This document shows, piece by piece, positions 27,966 through 40,862 of a stretch of 64,000 nucleotides of DNA. This DNA comes from Gemmatimonadota bacterium (GTDB taxonomy: Bacteria > Gemmatimonadota > Gemmatimonadetes > Gemmatimonadales > Gemmatimonadaceae). How positions within the stretch are numbered: position 1 is the first letter of the stretch; each line of letters opens with the position of its first letter. The notes below the pieces were generated by a model. The model searched no databases. It was not told the DNA's origin and worked only from the letters and a program-made list of their open reading frames with translations. The DNA lies in assembly GCA_028287305.1 (NCBI GenBank), contig JAQBPX010000037.1, forward strand, positions 1-64,000. The letters are read 5' to 3'. The translations under genes and the position numbers were made by a program.

Positions 27966-28634
27966 TCAGCCCTCGTCAGCAGTCCGCGGCGCCCGCGCCG
28001 GGTCCCACGAAAACCGGTCGCCCTGGAAGTGCGGCCTCATCCTCACCGTGGCCGCGAGCGTGAACGAGTCCTCGATCTCTCCATTCTCGCAGGCCGTCGC
28101 CAGGTCGGGGTACGAGTATCGCATCACGCGGTCGATGGTCTCGCCCGGCTCCCGTTCCGTGGGGACGCGTGCACCAAGGCGCACCGCCACCAGGTTGGGC
28201 CGGCTGGCCAGCTGCCCCGAATCGGTGAGCAGCCGCCCGAGCGGGAACAGTCCGGCCATCTCGTAGCCCAGCTCCTCGCGCAGCTCGCGCGCGGCAGCGT
28301 CACGCACGGACTCGCCGTCCTCGCGCCCGCCGCGGGGGATCTCGAGCACCCACATCCGCGGCGGGTGACGGAACGATCGCTCCACCAGGATGCGATCCTC
28401 GTCGTCGATCGGCACGATGGCCACCCCCGGCGCATGTCCCCGGGCCGGCGTGAGCCGGAATTGCTCCGACTTCTTCGACTCGTGCCCGTCGTGCGCGGGA
28501 AGTCGCACCGTTGCCATGCGAAGCTGGGCGTTGTCGTTCTCCCAGAGCACCCGCTCCTCGATCAGCTCGATCTCGCCACGCTCGGTGTCGCCCGGCTCGA
28601 CCGGCTCGTGAATGCGCGCATGTCCCGTCGTCAT
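27966..28634 (-). CDS. Nudix hydrolase
   Basis: A protein of about 222 residues with a clear Nudix box, G-x5-E-x7-REL-x-EELGY (GGREDGESVRDAAARELREE and onward), in the middle. It is preceded by VAIVPIDDEDRILVERSFRHPPRMWVLEIPRGG, as in ADP-ribose/sugar-nucleotide pyrophosphatases. I chose ATG 28634 (MTTGHARIHEP). An in-frame ATG at 28682 adds 16 residues (MAPVVHPSGATHF) and cannot be excluded. It would hydrolyse a nucleoside diphosphate derivative. The gene is divergent from the mannosyltransferase gene. The substrate cannot be read from sequence. Confidence 0.88.
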   Translation of the reverse strand: MTTGHARIHEPVEPGDTERGEIELIEERVLWENDNAQLRMATVRLPAHDGHESKKSEQFRLTPARGHAPGVAIVPIDDEDRILVERSFRHPPRMWVLEIPRGGREDGESVRDAAARELREELGYEMAGLFPLGRLLTDSGQLASRPNLVAVRLGARVPTEREPGETIDRVMRYSYPDLATACENGEIEDSFTLAATVRMRPHFQGDRFSWDPARAPRTADEG

Positions 28635-28749
28635 CGTCACTCGGAAATGGGTGGCGCCTGAGGGGTGCACGACCGGGGCCACCGCCGCGCGACTGCCCCC
28701 GGCCGCCCGCTCGGTTCCGCGCGCGCCCCCGGCGCGATATCATCCCGCG

Positions 28750-30201
28750 ATGGAAGAGCGCCCAGCCCCCTCCCGCTTCAGCCCGGACCTCCTGGTCCTG
28801 CTGCTCATCGCGGCGCTCACGCGCTTCACCGGCATCTTCCACCCGCGCGCCGTGGTCTACGATGAGGCGCTCTACGAGTACTACATCGGCTCGTACTTCT
28901 CGGGCAAGTTCTACTTCAACGTCCACCCGCCGCTCGGGAACCTGGTCTACTACTGGTTCGCGAAGCTGATCGGCTTCGACGGAGCCGCCATGGTGGCCGG
29001 CCAGCCCGCGGTGCCACTCAGGCTGGTGCACGCGCTCGCGGGCACGCTCGTGGTCGCCGTGTTCTGGTGGATGATGCGCGAGCTGGGCGCCAGCCGGCGC
29101 GTCGCGTTCCTGGCGGGCTTCCTGGTCGCGATCGACAACGCCCTCGTGGTGGATTCGCGCTTCATCCTCATCGACCAGTTCCTCACGCTGTTCGTCTTCC
29201 TCGCACCGACCCTCTACCTCTCGGCGCGCCGGCACACCGGCCGCGCGCGACTCTGGCGGATATTCGGCGTGGCGGTGGTGAGCGGCCTCGCGATCAGCAT
29301 CAAGTGGACGGGCCTCTCCGCGCTCGGCCTCAGCGGCATCGTCTGGCTGCTCGACGCCGCGAAGCGCCCCTTCCAGTGGCGTCGCCTGCTCCCGGAGGCG
29401 CTCGTCCTCGCCGCGATTCCACTCGCCGTCTACGTGCTGCCCTTCGCCCCGCACTTCGACAAGCTGACGAAGTCGGGCAACGGCGACGTGCTGACCATGA
29501 ACTACTTCCAGGCGACGCTCGAGGGAAGCCACTACTACGACCCGAAGGCCCAGCGCCACTTCGTGCGCGACTTCCGGATGCTGAATGACCGGATGATGCA
29601 CACGAACGCGATCATGAACACCGACGTCCACGTGTACGCCACGCCGTGGTACAGCTGGCCGGCAATGTGGCGCGTCTTCTACATGTACGGCTCGGGCAAG
29701 CTGCCGGGCGACCGCGACGCGCGCCTCCAGCTCCTCGGCAACCCCGTGGTGTGGTACGGGACACTGATCGCGTTGCTCGTGCTGATCGTCGCAGTCGCGC
29801 GTGACCGGCGGCGCTTCGCGGGCTATGGCTGGCCCCTGCTCTTCCTGGTGGGAGGCTGGGCGATCAACTACCTGCCCTTCGCCCCGATCCATCGACCGCT
29901 GTTTCTCTACTCGTACTTCAACTCGCTGATCTTCAGCGTGGGCTTCGCGGTGTTCGGCGTGGGCATCGTGCTGGGGTGGCAGGACGACGCCGGCGCGCCG
30001 TGGAGCCTTCCTGCCCTCCGCCGCTCACGCATGTATGTCGCGTGGGCGGCGGCCGCGGTGATCGGCTTCGCCTTCTTCATGCCGCTCACCTACGGCTGGC
30101 CGATGCGCCACGACAACCGCCTCTATCACTGGGCGCTGCCGGTGAAGGACTCCGTGGAGATCGAGGCGATCAAGGATTCGATCCGGAAGGGGCTGCGCTG
30201 A
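28750..30201 (+). CDS. Protein O-mannosyltransferase-type glycosyltransferase (PMT/GT39 family)
   Basis: A 483-residue polytopic membrane protein with about ten helices. The first extracytoplasmic loop carries the DE motif, VVYDEALYEYYIGSYFSG, followed by FNVHPPLGNLVYYW, the signature of PMT-type GT-C enzymes. DSRFILIDQFLTLFVF and the loop with HYYDPKAQRHFVRDF also match. These enzymes transfer a sugar from a polyprenyl-phosphate sugar to exported proteins or to lipids. The start at 28750 (MEERPAPSRFSPD) fits. Its 3' end overlaps the end of the convergent M1 peptidase gene by 32 bp. The acceptor is unknown. Confidence 0.87.
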   Translation: MEERPAPSRFSPDLLVLLLIAALTRFTGIFHPRAVVYDEALYEYYIGSYFSGKFYFNVHPPLGNLVYYWFAKLIGFDGAAMVAGQPAVPLRLVHALAGTLVVAVFWWMMRELGASRRVAFLAGFLVAIDNALVVDSRFILIDQFLTLFVFLAPTLYLSARRHTGRARLWRIFGVAVVSGLAISIKWTGLSALGLSGIVWLLDAAKRPFQWRRLLPEALVLAAIPLAVYVLPFAPHFDKLTKSGNGDVLTMNYFQATLEGSHYYDPKAQRHFVRDFRMLNDRMMHTNAIMNTDVHVYATPWYSWPAMWRVFYMYGSGKLPGDRDARLQLLGNPVVWYGTLIALLVLIVAVARDRRRFAGYGWPLLFLVGGWAINYLPFAPIHRPLFLYSYFNSLIFSVGFAVFGVGIVLGWQDDAGAPWSLPALRRSRMYVAWAAAAVIGFAFFMPLTYGWPMRHDNRLYHWALPVKDSVEIEAIKDSIRKGLR

Positions 30202-36514: not shown

Positions 36515-37396
36515 ATGCTTCCGCCAATCACCTTGCCCGAACACCAGCACCACGAGCAGACGCTCACGCAGCTCTTCGCGAGTAACGGGGTCGTCGTGGG
36601 CGTTCGAGCGAACGACGCCTCGGTGCTGCGGAGACTTCGCGAGTGCCTGCCTCCGGACGTCACTCACGTCGCCTCCGAGGGCGCGGTTTCCTGGTTCTCG
36701 CTTCTTCGCGTGCCACGCGATTCTCGTGGGAGGGTTCGCTTCGAGCTGCGCGCCGGTGGGAGACTGCTCCATCGGGGATATCGCCTCTCGCCGCTCGTGC
36801 CAGAACTCGATTCGGCCATCCGTCTCGAGGTCGGGCTCAGGGCGGCGGATCGCCTGTTCGTGCATGCGGGTGTGGTGGGGTGGCGCGGCAATGCCATCGT
36901 GCTGCCCGGCGCAAGCGGTACCGGCAAGACCTCGCTGGTCTCCGCATTGCTGCGTGCCGGTGCCACGTACTACTCCGACGAGTATGCCCTGCTGGACGAG
37001 ACGGGCGCTGTGTACCCCTACGCGCGCCCGCTTTCAGTTCGCCAGGGGTCGGTCCGGCGCCTCCTGCGGCGCCCCGAGGCGGACCTTGGTGCGCAGGTCG
37101 GCGTCGCTCCACTGCCGGTGAAATTCATCGTTCACACCACGCACCATGCCGGAGGTCGGTGGGAACCGAGGCTCCTCCCGCCCGGCCGCAGTGCCCTCGC
37201 CATGTTCTCGCACACCCTCGCGGCCCGCGAGCGGTCGTCGTTCGCGCTGTCCGTCCTGTCCAGGGCGGCTCACGGAGCAATTTCCTGGGAAGGTGAGCGA
37301 GGGGACGCTGCGGCTACAGCCGCGGCGCTGCTCGACTACACCGACGCCCTGAATTCCTCCACTCCTTCTGTCCCAAGTCTGCGGAGCCTGACATGA
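36515..37396 (+). CDS. HPr-kinase-like P-loop protein of a PqqD/glycosyltransferase cassette
   Basis: A 293-residue protein related to HprK-type serine kinases. The Walker A segment is AIVLPGASGTGKTSLVSALL (about 128-147), followed by GATYYSDEYALLDETGAVYPY with the acidic Asp-Glu. Homologues of this reduced HprK type occur in lasso-peptide, capsule and other peptide-modification clusters, usually next to a PqqD domain protein. The N-terminal 115 residues are of unclear fold. The stop overlaps the PqqD-domain gene by 4 bp (ATGA). It probably phosphorylates a small protein or peptide, but the target is unknown. The first gene of the cassette, it is separated by 87 bp from catalase. Confidence 0.8.
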   Translation: MLPPITLPEHQHHEQTLTQLFASNGVVVGVRANDASVLRRLRECLPPDVTHVASEGAVSWFSLLRVPRDSRGRVRFELRAGGRLLHRGYRLSPLVPELDSAIRLEVGLRAADRLFVHAGVVGWRGNAIVLPGASGTGKTSLVSALLRAGATYYSDEYALLDETGAVYPYARPLSVRQGSVRRLLRRPEADLGAQVGVAPLPVKFIVHTTHHAGGRWEPRLLPPGRSALAMFSHTLAARERSSFALSVLSRAAHGAISWEGERGDAAATAAALLDYTDALNSSTPSVPSLRSLT

Positions 37397-37824
37397 ATCC
37401 AATCGCGCGTACCGACCGCCTGATCCGGCAGGACGTTGGTCAGGAGACCCTCGTGTACGATCGGGCGCAGGAGAGTGCTGCGTGCCTCAACGAACTCGCG
37501 AGCGCGGTCTGGCGCCACTGCGACGGACAGCAGGACATCGACCAGCTCGTTACCCTGGTCTCGGCCGAGGTCGCACTGCCCGAAGGTGCCGAGCCCCGCC
37601 TCGTCATCGAGCACGTGCTCAACGAGCTCGATGAGCACGACCTGATCGCGTGGACGGGTGAGGAGACCGCGACCGCAGGCGGGATGACCCGCCGCAGCGT
37701 GCTATTGAAGGTGGCAGCGCTCGCGCTGGCGCCGACGATCATTCGCATGGTCGCCCCGACGACCGCGAGCGCCGCTTCCGGCCCCCCCCTTCCCTCCGCC
37801 ACCGCCCCCGCTCCCTCCATCTGA
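37393..37824 (+). CDS. PqqD-domain protein with C-terminal twin-arginine/signal-like tail
   Basis: A 143-residue protein of two unlike parts. Residues 1-90 form a PqqD-like winged-helix (RiPP recognition element): LIRQDVGQETLVYDRAQESAACLNELASAVWRHCDG, then LVIEHVLNELDEHDLI. Residues 98-127 read MTRRSVLLKVAALALAP... to ASA, a twin-arginine-like pair followed by a hydrophobic segment and an Ala-x-Ala site. The last 16 residues are only Pro, Ser, Ala, Thr, Gly, Leu and Ile. An export-type signal at the C-terminus of a PqqD domain is odd, though similar tails occur in other PqqD family proteins. It may be a carrier or substrate rather than a pure chaperone. It overlaps the HprK-like gene and is followed after 6 bp by the glycosyltransferase. 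Confidence 0.8.
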   Translation: MNPIARTDRLIRQDVGQETLVYDRAQESAACLNELASAVWRHCDGQQDIDQLVTLVSAEVALPEGAEPRLVIEHVLNELDEHDLIAWTGEETATAGGMTRRSVLLKVAALALAPTIIRMVAPTTASAASGPPLPSATAPAPSI

Positions 37825-37830
37825 CCAGGG

Positions 37831-39174
37831 ATGATCGCGCACGGCGGATCCCATCACGGGTTCCGCCGTGCCGACAGCCGTTGCAGCCCCTTCATGTTCG
37901 GCGACATCTTCGTGCAGGTGGCGGCGTACCGCGACCCTGATCTCGGTCCTACCCTTCGGGACGCCGTGGCGCGGGCGACCGACCCCTCGCGGCTGCGCTT
38001 CTGCATTGCGTGGCAACATGGCGACGACGAGTCGTACGAGAGCGTATTCGGGGATCTCGCGGCCCGGGTGCGGTTGGACGTCCTCGACATCCCATACGAG
38101 GAAAGTCGCGGCGCATGCTGGGCGCGCCACCGCATCCAGCAGCGCTACGAAGGCGAGGCGTACACCCTGCAGATCGACTCGCATCACCGGTTCGTCGACG
38201 GCTGGGACGACCTCTGCATCGGGATGATCACGGCGCTCCAGGACGCCGGCATTCCAAAACCGCTCCTCACGACTTATCTCCCTTCGTTCGACCCCCTGAC
38301 GGACCCGGAGGGCCGGACGATGCGGGCGTTGGAGCTGTCACTGGATCGGTTCATTCCCGAGGGTGCCGTGTTCGTTCGTGGCGCTCCGATGCGGGACTGG
38401 GAGACCCGCTCACATCCCTCGCGGGGCCGATTCTACTCCGCCCACTTCGCGTTCACGATCGGTCAATTCGCCAGGGAAGTGCAGCACGACCCGAGCTACT
38501 ACTTCCACGGCGAGGAGATCAACATCACCGTGCGGGCCTTCACGCACGGCTACGACCTGTTCCATCCCCATCGCCTCGTAGCCTGGCACGAGTACACACG
38601 TCGTGGGCGCACCAAGCACTGGGATGATCACCGCCAGTGGTCCGGGCTGAACCTCTCGTCGCACGAGCACAATCGACGCTTGTTCGGGATGGACGAGTTC
38701 GAGAGCCAACCCGCACTCGTCAGCGAGGCCCAGGCCAGCCCGTTCGGCTTCGGCACGGTCCGGACGCTCGAGGACTACGAGCGCTATGCCGGAATCTGCT
38801 TCCAGCGCCGCGGCGTCACGACATCTGCCCTCGAGAACCGCGAGCCTTCGCCTGATGACAACCAGGACGTCTCATACGAGGTCTTCGCGGCCGGCTGCAT
38901 CCCCCGTTTCAAGCACTGCATCGACCTCGATCGACGGTGGGTTCCGCTGACCGACTACGACTTCTGGTGCGTGGCCTTCCACGACGCGGCGGGCAGGTCG
39001 CTCCATCGGCAGGACATCGACGAGGCCGAGATCGCCGCGCTTCAGGGGGATGCGGATGGGAAGTTTCAGCTCTGGCGCTCGTTCGACACGGAAATTCTCC
39101 CCGCATCGTGGAGCGTGTGGCCGCACAGCCGGAGTGCGGGGTGGTGCGCGCCCATCGTGGGGCATTTGCGGTGA
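37831..39174 (+). CDS. GlcNAc-transferase-type glycosyltransferase (GT60, Skp1-like)
   Basis: A 447-residue protein if started at 37831; the ATG at 37894 (MFGDIFVQVAAYRDPDL) fits the family N-terminus better and would give 426 residues. The glycosyltransferase (GlcNAc) family features are IFVQVAAYRDPDLGPTLRDA, FCIAWQHGDDESYES, YEESRGACWARHRIQQRYEGEAYTLQIDSHHRFVDGWDD (with Asp-Ser-His as the metal motif), and YYFHGEEINITVRAFTHGYDLFHP. In eukaryotes this family adds GlcNAc to hydroxyproline of Skp1; bacterial targets are unknown. The stop overlaps the next gene (GTGA). The neighbouring PqqD-tail protein, with its Ser/Thr/Pro end, is a possible acceptor. Confidence 0.83.
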   Translation: MIAHGGSHHGFRRADSRCSPFMFGDIFVQVAAYRDPDLGPTLRDAVARATDPSRLRFCIAWQHGDDESYESVFGDLAARVRLDVLDIPYEESRGACWARHRIQQRYEGEAYTLQIDSHHRFVDGWDDLCIGMITALQDAGIPKPLLTTYLPSFDPLTDPEGRTMRALELSLDRFIPEGAVFVRGAPMRDWETRSHPSRGRFYSAHFAFTIGQFAREVQHDPSYYFHGEEINITVRAFTHGYDLFHPHRLVAWHEYTRRGRTKHWDDHRQWSGLNLSSHEHNRRLFGMDEFESQPALVSEAQASPFGFGTVRTLEDYERYAGICFQRRGVTTSALENREPSPDDNQDVSYEVFAAGCIPRFKHCIDLDRRWVPLTDYDFWCVAFHDAAGRSLHRQDIDEAEIAALQGDADGKFQLWRSFDTEILPASWSVWPHSRSAGWCAPIVGHLR

Positions 39175-40862
39175 CCGACCTGACGGTGGTCACCGGCATC
39201 TGGGACCTTGGCCGCGACGGCGCCAGTCCAGCGTTCCGGCGGTCCTTCAGCGAGTACGAGCGTCACCTGGGCGAACTGCTCGACGCGGACTGTCCGATGA
39301 TCGTCTTTGGGGAGGCCTCACTCGAAGAGATGGTCCGCCAGCGACGGGGAACCCGGCCCACCGAATTTCGCCTCGCACCCGCGACGACATTCCGCGATCG
39401 TTTCGCCTTCTACGATCGGGTCCAGGCCATCCGGGCGGACGTACGATGGCGGGAGCAAGCGCCCTGGCTTGCAGCTTCTCCTCAAGCCAGCCTGGCGCTG
39501 TACAACCCGATGGTGATGTCGAAGATGTTCATGCTGCATGACGTCTCGCTCGCCAATCCGTTCCGGACGGCCCACTTCGCCTGGATCGACGGTGGGATCA
39601 CCCGCACGGTCGACCCCGCGTACTTCACGCGCGACCGGTGCCTGGAACGGGTGGTGTCCCTCCTCGACAACTTCCTTTTCGTGTCATTCCCGTATGAAGA
39701 CGGCACCGAGGTTCACGGGTTTGCCCGGAACGGCATGCGAGCGTACTGCGGCGATGACTCACGCTACGTCTGTCGCGGCGGCTTCTTCGGCGGACACATC
39801 GACCTGCTGAGTGAGGTCAACAGCCACTACTACGAGGTGCTGGAGAGCACCCTGCATGCGGGGCTCATGGGCACCGAGGAGAGTGTGTTCACCATCCTGA
39901 CCCACGAGGAGCCGCAGCTGTACGACCGGTTCGCGCTCAGGGAAGCGCACCGCGGCCTGCTGACGCCTTTTTTCGAGCACGTGAAGACGTTGCCGATTCA
40001 CCGTGGAGTGTCGAGCAGCTACCCCGCGCCGAATACAACGAGCGTCGACCCGGACACTGCCACCCTTGACGGCTACGTGGTGACCTTCAACGCGCCGCAA
40101 CAGCTCCGCGCTGTTCTCGCGAGCTGGGCGCCGTCGACCGTGTTCGATGCGCTGTACCTCCTGGATCACAGCACCGATCCGGCGGCGCAGCGGGAGAATC
40201 GGGAGATCGCCGAAGTCCACGGCGCCGCGGTGTTGCATCATCCCCTCGGGAACGGGGGCGTCTGCGGCGGACGACAGTTCGTCGCTGAGCACTTCGATGG
40301 CACGACGACCGACTACTGCCTCTACATCGAAGACGACATGTTCCTGAACCCCCCGGGCGACGCCGGCCTCTGTGCGAACGGCTTTCGCCGATCAGTATCG
40401 GACATACGCCGCCTGCTGCTCCGCATCCTCGCCGAGGAAGGATTCGACTTCCTCAAGCTGTCGTTCACCGAGGTCTTCGGCGATCACAAATCGCAGTTTG
40501 CGTGGTACCACCTGCCAGAGGAGATCAGGGCGCGTCGGTGGCGGGAGAAGCCCATGTTGCGACCCGGGCACGTGGACCCCGCGTGCCCGCGTGCCCAGTT
40601 CGGCCGGATCGGCACGGTCGACGGGGTCTCGTACATCGATGGCGAAGTCTACTACTCCAACTGGCCGCACATCGTGTCCAGGGCGGGAAACCGGACGATG
40701 TTCCTGGAGCCGGCGCTCCTCGAGCCGTATGAGCAAGTCTGGATGGCAGAGATGTACCAGCGCACCATCGACGGGCACCTGCATCCTGCCGTTCTCCTGG
40801 CTTCGCTGATCACGCACGACCGCTCCGCCCACTATCCCTCAGAGCTGAGACGGGAGCACTGA
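39171..40862 (+). CDS. Two-domain glycosyltransferase: HtrL/YibB-like domain fused to GT-A domain
   Basis: A 563-residue protein starting at GTG 39171, overlapping the GT60 stop by 4 bp. Residues about 1-270 match the HtrL/YibB family: TVVTGIWDLGRDGASPAFRR, CPMIVFGE, ALYNPMVMSKMFMLHDV, TAHFAWIDGGITRTV and CRGGFFGGHIDLL. Residues about 300-560 look like a GT-A glycosyltransferase: YVVTFNAPQQLRAVLASW, EIAEVHGAAVLHHPLGNGGVCGGRQF, and TDYCLYIEDDMFLNPPGDA with a DDM acidic metal motif. The fusion suggests that two transfer steps are done by one polypeptide. It is the last gene of the cassette; a 170-bp spacer follows. Donor and acceptor are unknown. Confidence 0.78.
   Translation: MTDLTVVTGIWDLGRDGASPAFRRSFSEYERHLGELLDADCPMIVFGEASLEEMVRQRRGTRPTEFRLAPATTFRDRFAFYDRVQAIRADVRWREQAPWLAASPQASLALYNPMVMSKMFMLHDVSLANPFRTAHFAWIDGGITRTVDPAYFTRDRCLERVVSLLDNFLFVSFPYEDGTEVHGFARNGMRAYCGDDSRYVCRGGFFGGHIDLLSEVNSHYYEVLESTLHAGLMGTEESVFTILTHEEPQLYDRFALREAHRGLLTPFFEHVKTLPIHRGVSSSYPAPNTTSVDPDTATLDGYVVTFNAPQQLRAVLASWAPSTVFDALYLLDHSTDPAAQRENREIAEVHGAAVLHHPLGNGGVCGGRQFVAEHFDGTTTDYCLYIEDDMFLNPPGDAGLCANGFRRSVSDIRRLLLRILAEEGFDFLKLSFTEVFGDHKSQFAWYHLPEEIRARRWREKPMLRPGHVDPACPRAQFGRIGTVDGVSYIDGEVYYSNWPHIVSRAGNRTMFLEPALLEPYEQVWMAEMYQRTIDGHLHPAVLLASLITHDRSAHYPSELRREH

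Follow-up and report, generated by a model that had tools for sequence, protein, structure and literature searches.

An apparent fusion of a PqqD-type recognition domain to its own Tat-type precursor in an HprK-associated operon of Gemmatimonadota

The gene at positions 37393–37824 of the DNA analysed here (a 64 000-nucleotide stretch of a Gemmatimonadaceae contig, called the window below) lies on the forward strand, runs from an ATG to a TGA and encodes 143 aa: a PqqD-type recognition element (RRE), a small peptide-binding domain that most likely serves as chaperone to the exported peptide, then a leader with a twin arginine (RR) and a short core. The best supported account is that the gene has united an RRE with the precursor it serves, because related loci with a tail-less RRE encode an RR-peptide as a separate gene, and fused loci have no such gene. 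An earlier sequence-only reading had offered, as one of three options, an RRE acting as the built-in leader of a precursor; it is this option that the separate peptides favor, as they are found only where the RRE is tail-less. The tail is conserved, the fused and separate forms are equivalent, and the gene is linked to an operon. The product is probably a RiPP-like precursor with a built-in recognition domain, which would be modified by a kinase, exported by the Tat route and glycosylated.

All of the parts named in the earlier reading can be recovered: a PF05402 match and an alignment of 23 fused sequences bear out the RRE, the RR pair, the hydrophobic segment, the AxA-like site and the P/S/A/T-rich end. 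RRE and linker together occupy residues 1–97 (37393–37683, +), as delimited by AlphaFold and structure matching; the PqqD family match (PF05402) covers residues 32–85 (E=1.5e-6; 28.8 bits against a cut-off of 23.4). The AlphaFold model places strands at residues 2–5, 10–15, 18–23, 28–32 and 85–88, and helices at 34–41, 49–59 and 68–81. The winged helix fold is present, three strands of a sheet and then three helices, and pLDDT exceeds 90 for most of residues 1–80. The closest PDB match to this model is the lasso RRE TbiB1 (5v1v; Z 8.9, rmsd 3.1, 87 residues), and the top matches (5v1v, 5v1u and 6jx3) are lasso RREs solved with leader. Within the RRE, R6, D23, L32, G45, L79 and L84 are invariant in the alignment.

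Beyond the RRE the chain reads GGMTRRSVLLKVAALALAPTIIRMVAPTTASAAS, followed by a P/S/A/T-rich end. The tail thus consists of M98-T-R100-R101-S, a hydrophobic stretch to about residue 121, an AxA around residues 125–128 and a 15-residue P/S/A/T end. The twin arginine R100-R101 (37690–37695, +) and Pro114 (37732–37734, +; 23/23) are invariant in the fused alignment, well beyond what chance would give, and the RR pair also occurs in nearly all separate peptides. The signal-peptidase-like site ASAA, residues 125–128 (37765–37776, +), is proposed from alanine conservation: counting from Pro114 as P, Ala stands at P+11 in 17 and at P+13 in 14 of the 23 fused sequences. After it comes the predicted exported core, SGPPLPSATAPAPSI, rich in Ser, Thr and Pro (37777–37821, +). 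The same layout is found in relatives from Gemmatimonadota, Methylomirabilota and Chloroflexota/Thermomicrobiota, and across these groups, judged by alignment, the tail is as conserved as the RRE. Absence of the tail from close homologues, considered in the sequence-only reading, is thus not what the 23 aligned relatives display. The comparison of homologues proposed there came out in two ways: RR and the Pro of the hydrophobic segment are invariant, but the C-terminal core varies widely, from eight-Cys, Asn/Gln-rich, Lys-rich and Pro/Ser-rich sequences to large domains, and extends to hundreds of residues in some relatives. Tandem RRE-tail genes with differing cores lie beside a single HprK-like gene in G241 (L029 6724–7594), G360 (L091) and G188 (L031); an RRE-tail gene in G226 (L033 9160–9852) is apparently decayed, with an internal stop, no tail and no adjoining HprK-like gene.

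In a six-frame scan of 1.16 Mb of DNA from the relatives' loci, the hydrophobic pattern RR...Px[IV]x[ST] was mostly confined to RRE-linked ORFs, and it occurred in 0/17 other N-terminal RR-signal-like genes of the same loci. The idea that the Pro motif is a plain feature of Tat signals was ruled out, as those 17 unrelated genes lack it. The RR-peptide matches no NCBIfam or Pfam family.

The equivalence of fused and separate forms comes from local profiles, the tail profile used for the locus counts being built from 34 sequences. These find a separate RR-peptide gene in the HprK-like operon of 12 loci with a tail-less RRE (G043, G038, G305, G104, G184, G327, G343, G314, G166, G353, G219 and G323) and at none of the fused loci. 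Tail-less G020, G186, G304 and G288 gave no peptide gene at the profile threshold used; G288 and a second G038 match lie where their contigs end, and a weak peptide candidate is present in G304. In the RRE-domain tree, a branch (93/97) splits 19 tail-less rows from the fused rows, and the window clusters with G073, G813 and G819 (100/99). Three sequences labelled separate (G652, G507 and one G744 copy) were placed in the fused clade; on inspection they have degenerate tails. Fusion or fission probably took place only once, by a tree that has few columns and many unresolved forks. G104 (L042 9779–10309) has two neighboring separate RR-peptides, one with a Pro-rich and one with a Met/Gly-rich core, beside one RRE. 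A PRMT-like methyltransferase gene (L043 9531–10712 in G184, and homologues) is seen only in separate-peptide loci, where it lies between RRE and peptide in 9 of the 12; the C-terminal part of its product has a weak PqqD match (residues 330–356, E=0.0009), and the enzyme may carry its own RRE-like domain.

The existence of separate genes also bears on the suggestion, in the earlier reading, that two genes had merged. In the evolutionary sense this stands, since the parts are separate in 12 loci; as an artefact, two neighboring genes joined by a sequencing frameshift, it can be dismissed with near certainty. A run of eight C at 37782–37789, within the core, speaks for such an error, but dozens of independent assemblies have the same in-frame join, the run lies downstream of the conserved part, and other frames yield no cleaner tail. 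Scarcely more credible is an internal start at Met98, which would make a separate 46-residue exported peptide the product and the full-length protein a by-product. In its favor, Met98 stands just before the RR, and G073 shares this Met; against it, 21 of the 23 fused relatives have no Met by the RR, and two of the three nearest relatives, G813 and G819 of the same clade, read GVGRR and SIGRR.

What the tail would bind is suggested by the Pro motif. The proposed RRE-recognition sequence, ALAPTIIRMV (residues 111–120; 37723–37752, +), is delimited by P114, P+2 and a modelled strand. Lasso and LPP RREs bind [Y/W]xxPx[L/V/I/F/A] (PMC13381572). Here every one of the 23 fused tails has V or I at P+2, as do the separate peptides. 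The P-3 position differs between the two forms: it is Y or W in 11/11 separate peptides, with F in two further ones, but mostly L or V in fused tails, with F once and never Y or W. The separate peptides thus carry [Y/W/F]xxPx[V/I] and the fused tails a relaxed form of it; fused proteins would be expected to lose the aromatic anchor if binding turns intramolecular. These counts come from related, hence non-independent, sequences, and the window's own motif is a poor match at two positions, P-3 (Ala) and P+4 (Arg).

Models agree with binding in cis. AlphaFold models of the window protein (23-row alignment; mean pLDDT 82.4, pTM 0.70) and of the G225 protein (mean pLDDT 80.4, pTM 0.63) both form a strand at residues 116–120, that is P+2 to P+6, with tail pLDDT of about 60–72. 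In the LppB-LppA crystal, the LppA leader lies on the RRE sheet as a strand from P+1 to P+6 (PMC13381572). Alignments to 4wd9 (NisB with NisA leader) span model residues 1 to 123 (window) and 1 to 122 (G225) and reach chain residues 1020 and 1019; the sequence of that chain ends with the NisA leader. Because the alignment runs into the NisA leader part of the chain, the modelled tail very probably occupies the leader-binding place, the partner of the strand being deduced from DSSP and the 4wd9 alignment together. The models thus support binding of the tail in cis by its own RRE, for which the place would be the beta/alpha3 groove where RREs take up a leader.

The segment around the motif also has the look of an export signal. 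The Tat-type pattern [S/T]RRx-hydrophobic-AxA is present (MTRRSVLLKVAALALAP...ASAA), and the genome encodes TatC (PF00902, E=3e-61). No curated Tat signal model matches the window protein; in two relatives the matches are weak and below cut-off (TIGR01409, E=0.12; PF10518, E=0.013). An internal Tat-type signal behind a folded domain is unusual. In G561 (L147, L148) the RRE-leader is fused to an ALK/LTK Gly-rich domain (PF12810, 6e-14), an architecture usual in extracellular proteins, and in another case a relative has a weak PKD match beyond the AxA. Domains of these types after the AxA argue that the segment beyond it lies outside the cell; Tat export and cleavage of the tail at AxA would fit these sequences.

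A different use of the same segment is as a permanent C-terminal anchor, holding at the membrane a trans-acting RRE chaperone that is not itself a substrate. The sequence-only reading had listed a tail anchor among its options, and one part of it holds: the hydrophobic segment is near the C terminus, with just 9–15 residues after it in the window protein and in G241. The reading is nevertheless unlikely. The AxA and the Ser/Thr at P+15 are conserved; relatives carry long cores beyond the segment, Cys-rich or with extracellular-type domains; an invariant Pro sits in the middle of the segment; and fused loci have no separate precursor gene, whereas tail-less RREs do have one.

The fused precursor stands in a tight operon, in the order HprK-like, RRE-tail, PF11397, YibB-type. 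The first gene (36515–37396, +) encodes an HprK-related kinase-like protein of 293 aa, assigned by profile match, synteny and P-loop; its stop overlaps the start of the RRE-tail gene as ATGA. Motif alignment finds the P-loop PGASGTGKTS, a His within VHAG and an Asp within SDEY. A locally built profile matches it at E=1e-88, and it is in synteny with the RRE-tail gene in most relatives. Six bases past the stop of the RRE-tail gene begins a GlcNAc-type glycosyltransferase gene (37831–39174, +; PF11397, E=4.1e-71), and then comes an HtrL/YibB-type gene for a probable second glycosyltransferase (39171–40862, +; PF09612, E=2.2e-12), whose start is probably the GTG at 39171, overlapping the preceding stop as GTGA. 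Both are syntenic in G073, G813 and G819, where the PF11397 protein is 58–67% identical to the window copy. No NTP transferase (NTP_transf_5) gene lies beside the window RRE-tail gene, four PF14907 genes being found elsewhere in the genome; the gene is common in relatives and adjacent in G073, G813 and G819. In G240 (L004 7023–9695), and in other Gemmatimonadota as well, a cassette of HprK, RRE-tail and NTP_transf_5 sits between rpoC and rpsL, in a ribosomal/RNA polymerase gene run.

Phosphorylation would fall on Ser129 (37777–37779, +), the residue at P+15. Ser or Thr occupies this position in 22 of the 23 fused sequences (1–3/23 at neighboring positions) and, by hand count, in 12 of 14 sequences outside that set; separate peptides have their first Ser a little later, near P+16/17, and the P+15 rule is one of the fused group only. 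LppK polyphosphorylates Ser3 of LppA, 15 residues after its motif Pro, which is P-13 in LppA's own numbering (PMC13381572). The HprK-like gene is the most constant neighbor, adjoining the RRE in nearly all loci, fused and separate, in several phyla. Conservation at P+15, the equal spacing in LppA and the constancy of the kinase gene are the grounds on which Ser129 is the predicted site, by analogy with LppA.

It could be instead that the RRE-tail protein is exported by Tat, whole or as the tail, and that the kinase and glycosyltransferases act elsewhere, for example on surface polysaccharide, the RRE being a vestigial leader. Phosphorylation of the tail is predicted, not demonstrated, and glycosyltransferases beside RiPP genes are often members of polysaccharide loci (PMC13381572). 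The proposal seems improbable, slightly more so than the anchor: an HprK-like gene adjoins nearly all loci in several phyla, fused or separate, and the core residues of the RRE stay invariant.

The co-occurrence of a glycosyltransferase operon and Ser/Thr/Pro-rich tails suggests O-glycosylation of those tails. In G073, G813 and G819, of the same family as the window, the order is NTP_transf_5, HprK, RRE-tail, PF11397, YibB, and the cores, of 26 to about 90 residues, are rich in Ser, Thr, Pro and Ala, those of G813 and G819 being long and mucin-like. No other fused locus examined has the PF11397/YibB pair; these four loci form one clade and count as one correlation, not four independent cases. 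A protein O-mannosyltransferase gene (28612–30201, +; PF02366, 1.6e-35; PF16192, 5e-28) lies about 6 kb upstream of the operon, and its product is a possible further modifier of the Ser/Thr-rich exported tail.

For the fused precursor, then, a sequence of events can be proposed, its order being our inference. The N-terminal RRE would fold and bind xxxPx[V/I] of its own leader in cis; with the leader bound, the core behind it would be offered to the HprK-like kinase of the upstream gene; the kinase would (poly)phosphorylate Ser129; the twin-arginine segment would take the modified tail to the membrane, where Tat would export it; a cut near AxA would free or uncover the short Ser/Thr/Pro core; and the PF11397 and YibB-type enzymes would decorate it. 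RRE and leader may together form a module that can be used again to modify and export different cargoes, because the relatives' cores range over Cys-rich, Asn/Gln-rich and mucin-like sequences and a folded domain of extracellular type.

The nearest known relatives of this arrangement are the LPPs, linear polyphosphorylated peptides of Bacillota (Popov et al. 2026, PMC13381572). Shared with them are an RRE and an HprK-like kinase in one operon (with an NTP transferase in most relatives), a precursor whose leader is conserved and whose C terminus varies, an expected linear product, the YxxPx[V] motif in separate-peptide relatives and a Ser 15 residues past the motif Pro. The differences are several: the LPP RRE is discrete; the LPP leader is YxxPxVLxHQxIxFETxxS, against an RR/Tat-like one here, only xxxPx[VI] and the Pro-to-Ser spacing being common; among annotated ORFs of about 28.6–46.3 kb of the window there is no dedicated leader peptidase, SpI-like or other, and no exporter, MsbA-like ones included; the phyla are other than Bacillota; and the associated enzymes are PF11397/YibB glycosyltransferases (window clade) or the PRMT-like methyltransferase (separate-peptide loci). 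The window system is not classed as an LPP because it lacks the discrete RRE, the leader consensus and the NTP transferase in the operon.

Lasso peptides of the paeninodin/pseudomycoidin type also have an HprK-family kinase modifying Ser, an NTP transferase linked to hexose addition (PMC9266682) and a PqqD-like RRE with a [Y/W]xxP leader; but the annotated neighbors in the window include neither a macrolactam cyclase (Asn-synthetase-like) nor a B2 protease, there is no lasso core, and RRE and precursor are fused. The HPr-rel-A system (TIGR04352 HprK_rel_A, TIGR04353 PqqD_rel_X) likewise pairs an HprK-related kinase with a PqqD-family protein, but the window proteins fall below both cut-offs (E=5e-16, 58.6 bits against 200; 17.5 bits against 35). 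Bufferin-type DUF2282 precursors, with DUF2063-associated RREs (mentioned in PMC12710340), also use an export signal as leader, but with a Sec signal, a separate RRE and other enzymes; this comparison is by description alone. Overall, the window gene is read as a natural fusion of RRE and precursor within an HprK-associated system that resembles the LPPs, and it would work in the manner of LPPs or phosphorylated lasso peptides.

RiPP precursors and recognition elements are normally taken as separate molecules, or the RRE as fused to an enzyme. No description of an RRE fused to a precursor, or of an RRE with Tat, was found in the openly accessible journal literature. Chances seem evenly balanced that this is an undescribed design, in which the precursor itself begins with its recognition element, the motif that the RRE binds is contained in an internal signal of Tat type, and diverse cargoes (knottin-like, mucin-like, folded extracellular) are tagged, ahead of export or in its course, for HprK-type phosphorylation and for glycosylation. 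Such a design would occur in three phyla or more.

Fused and unfused forms in related genomes are a natural experiment on the RRE in cis and in trans, the aromatic anchor being kept in trans and dropped in cis. Outside Bacillota, many HprK-like, NTP_transf_5, PF11397 and YibB genes that lack a known function gain candidate substrates. PMC12710340 reports that 21% of PF05402 proteins exceed the size of a discrete RRE without other annotation; RRE-precursor fusions may account for some of these oversized proteins. The finding suggests a widespread and so far undescribed way of building secreted peptides that probably bear phosphate and sugar.
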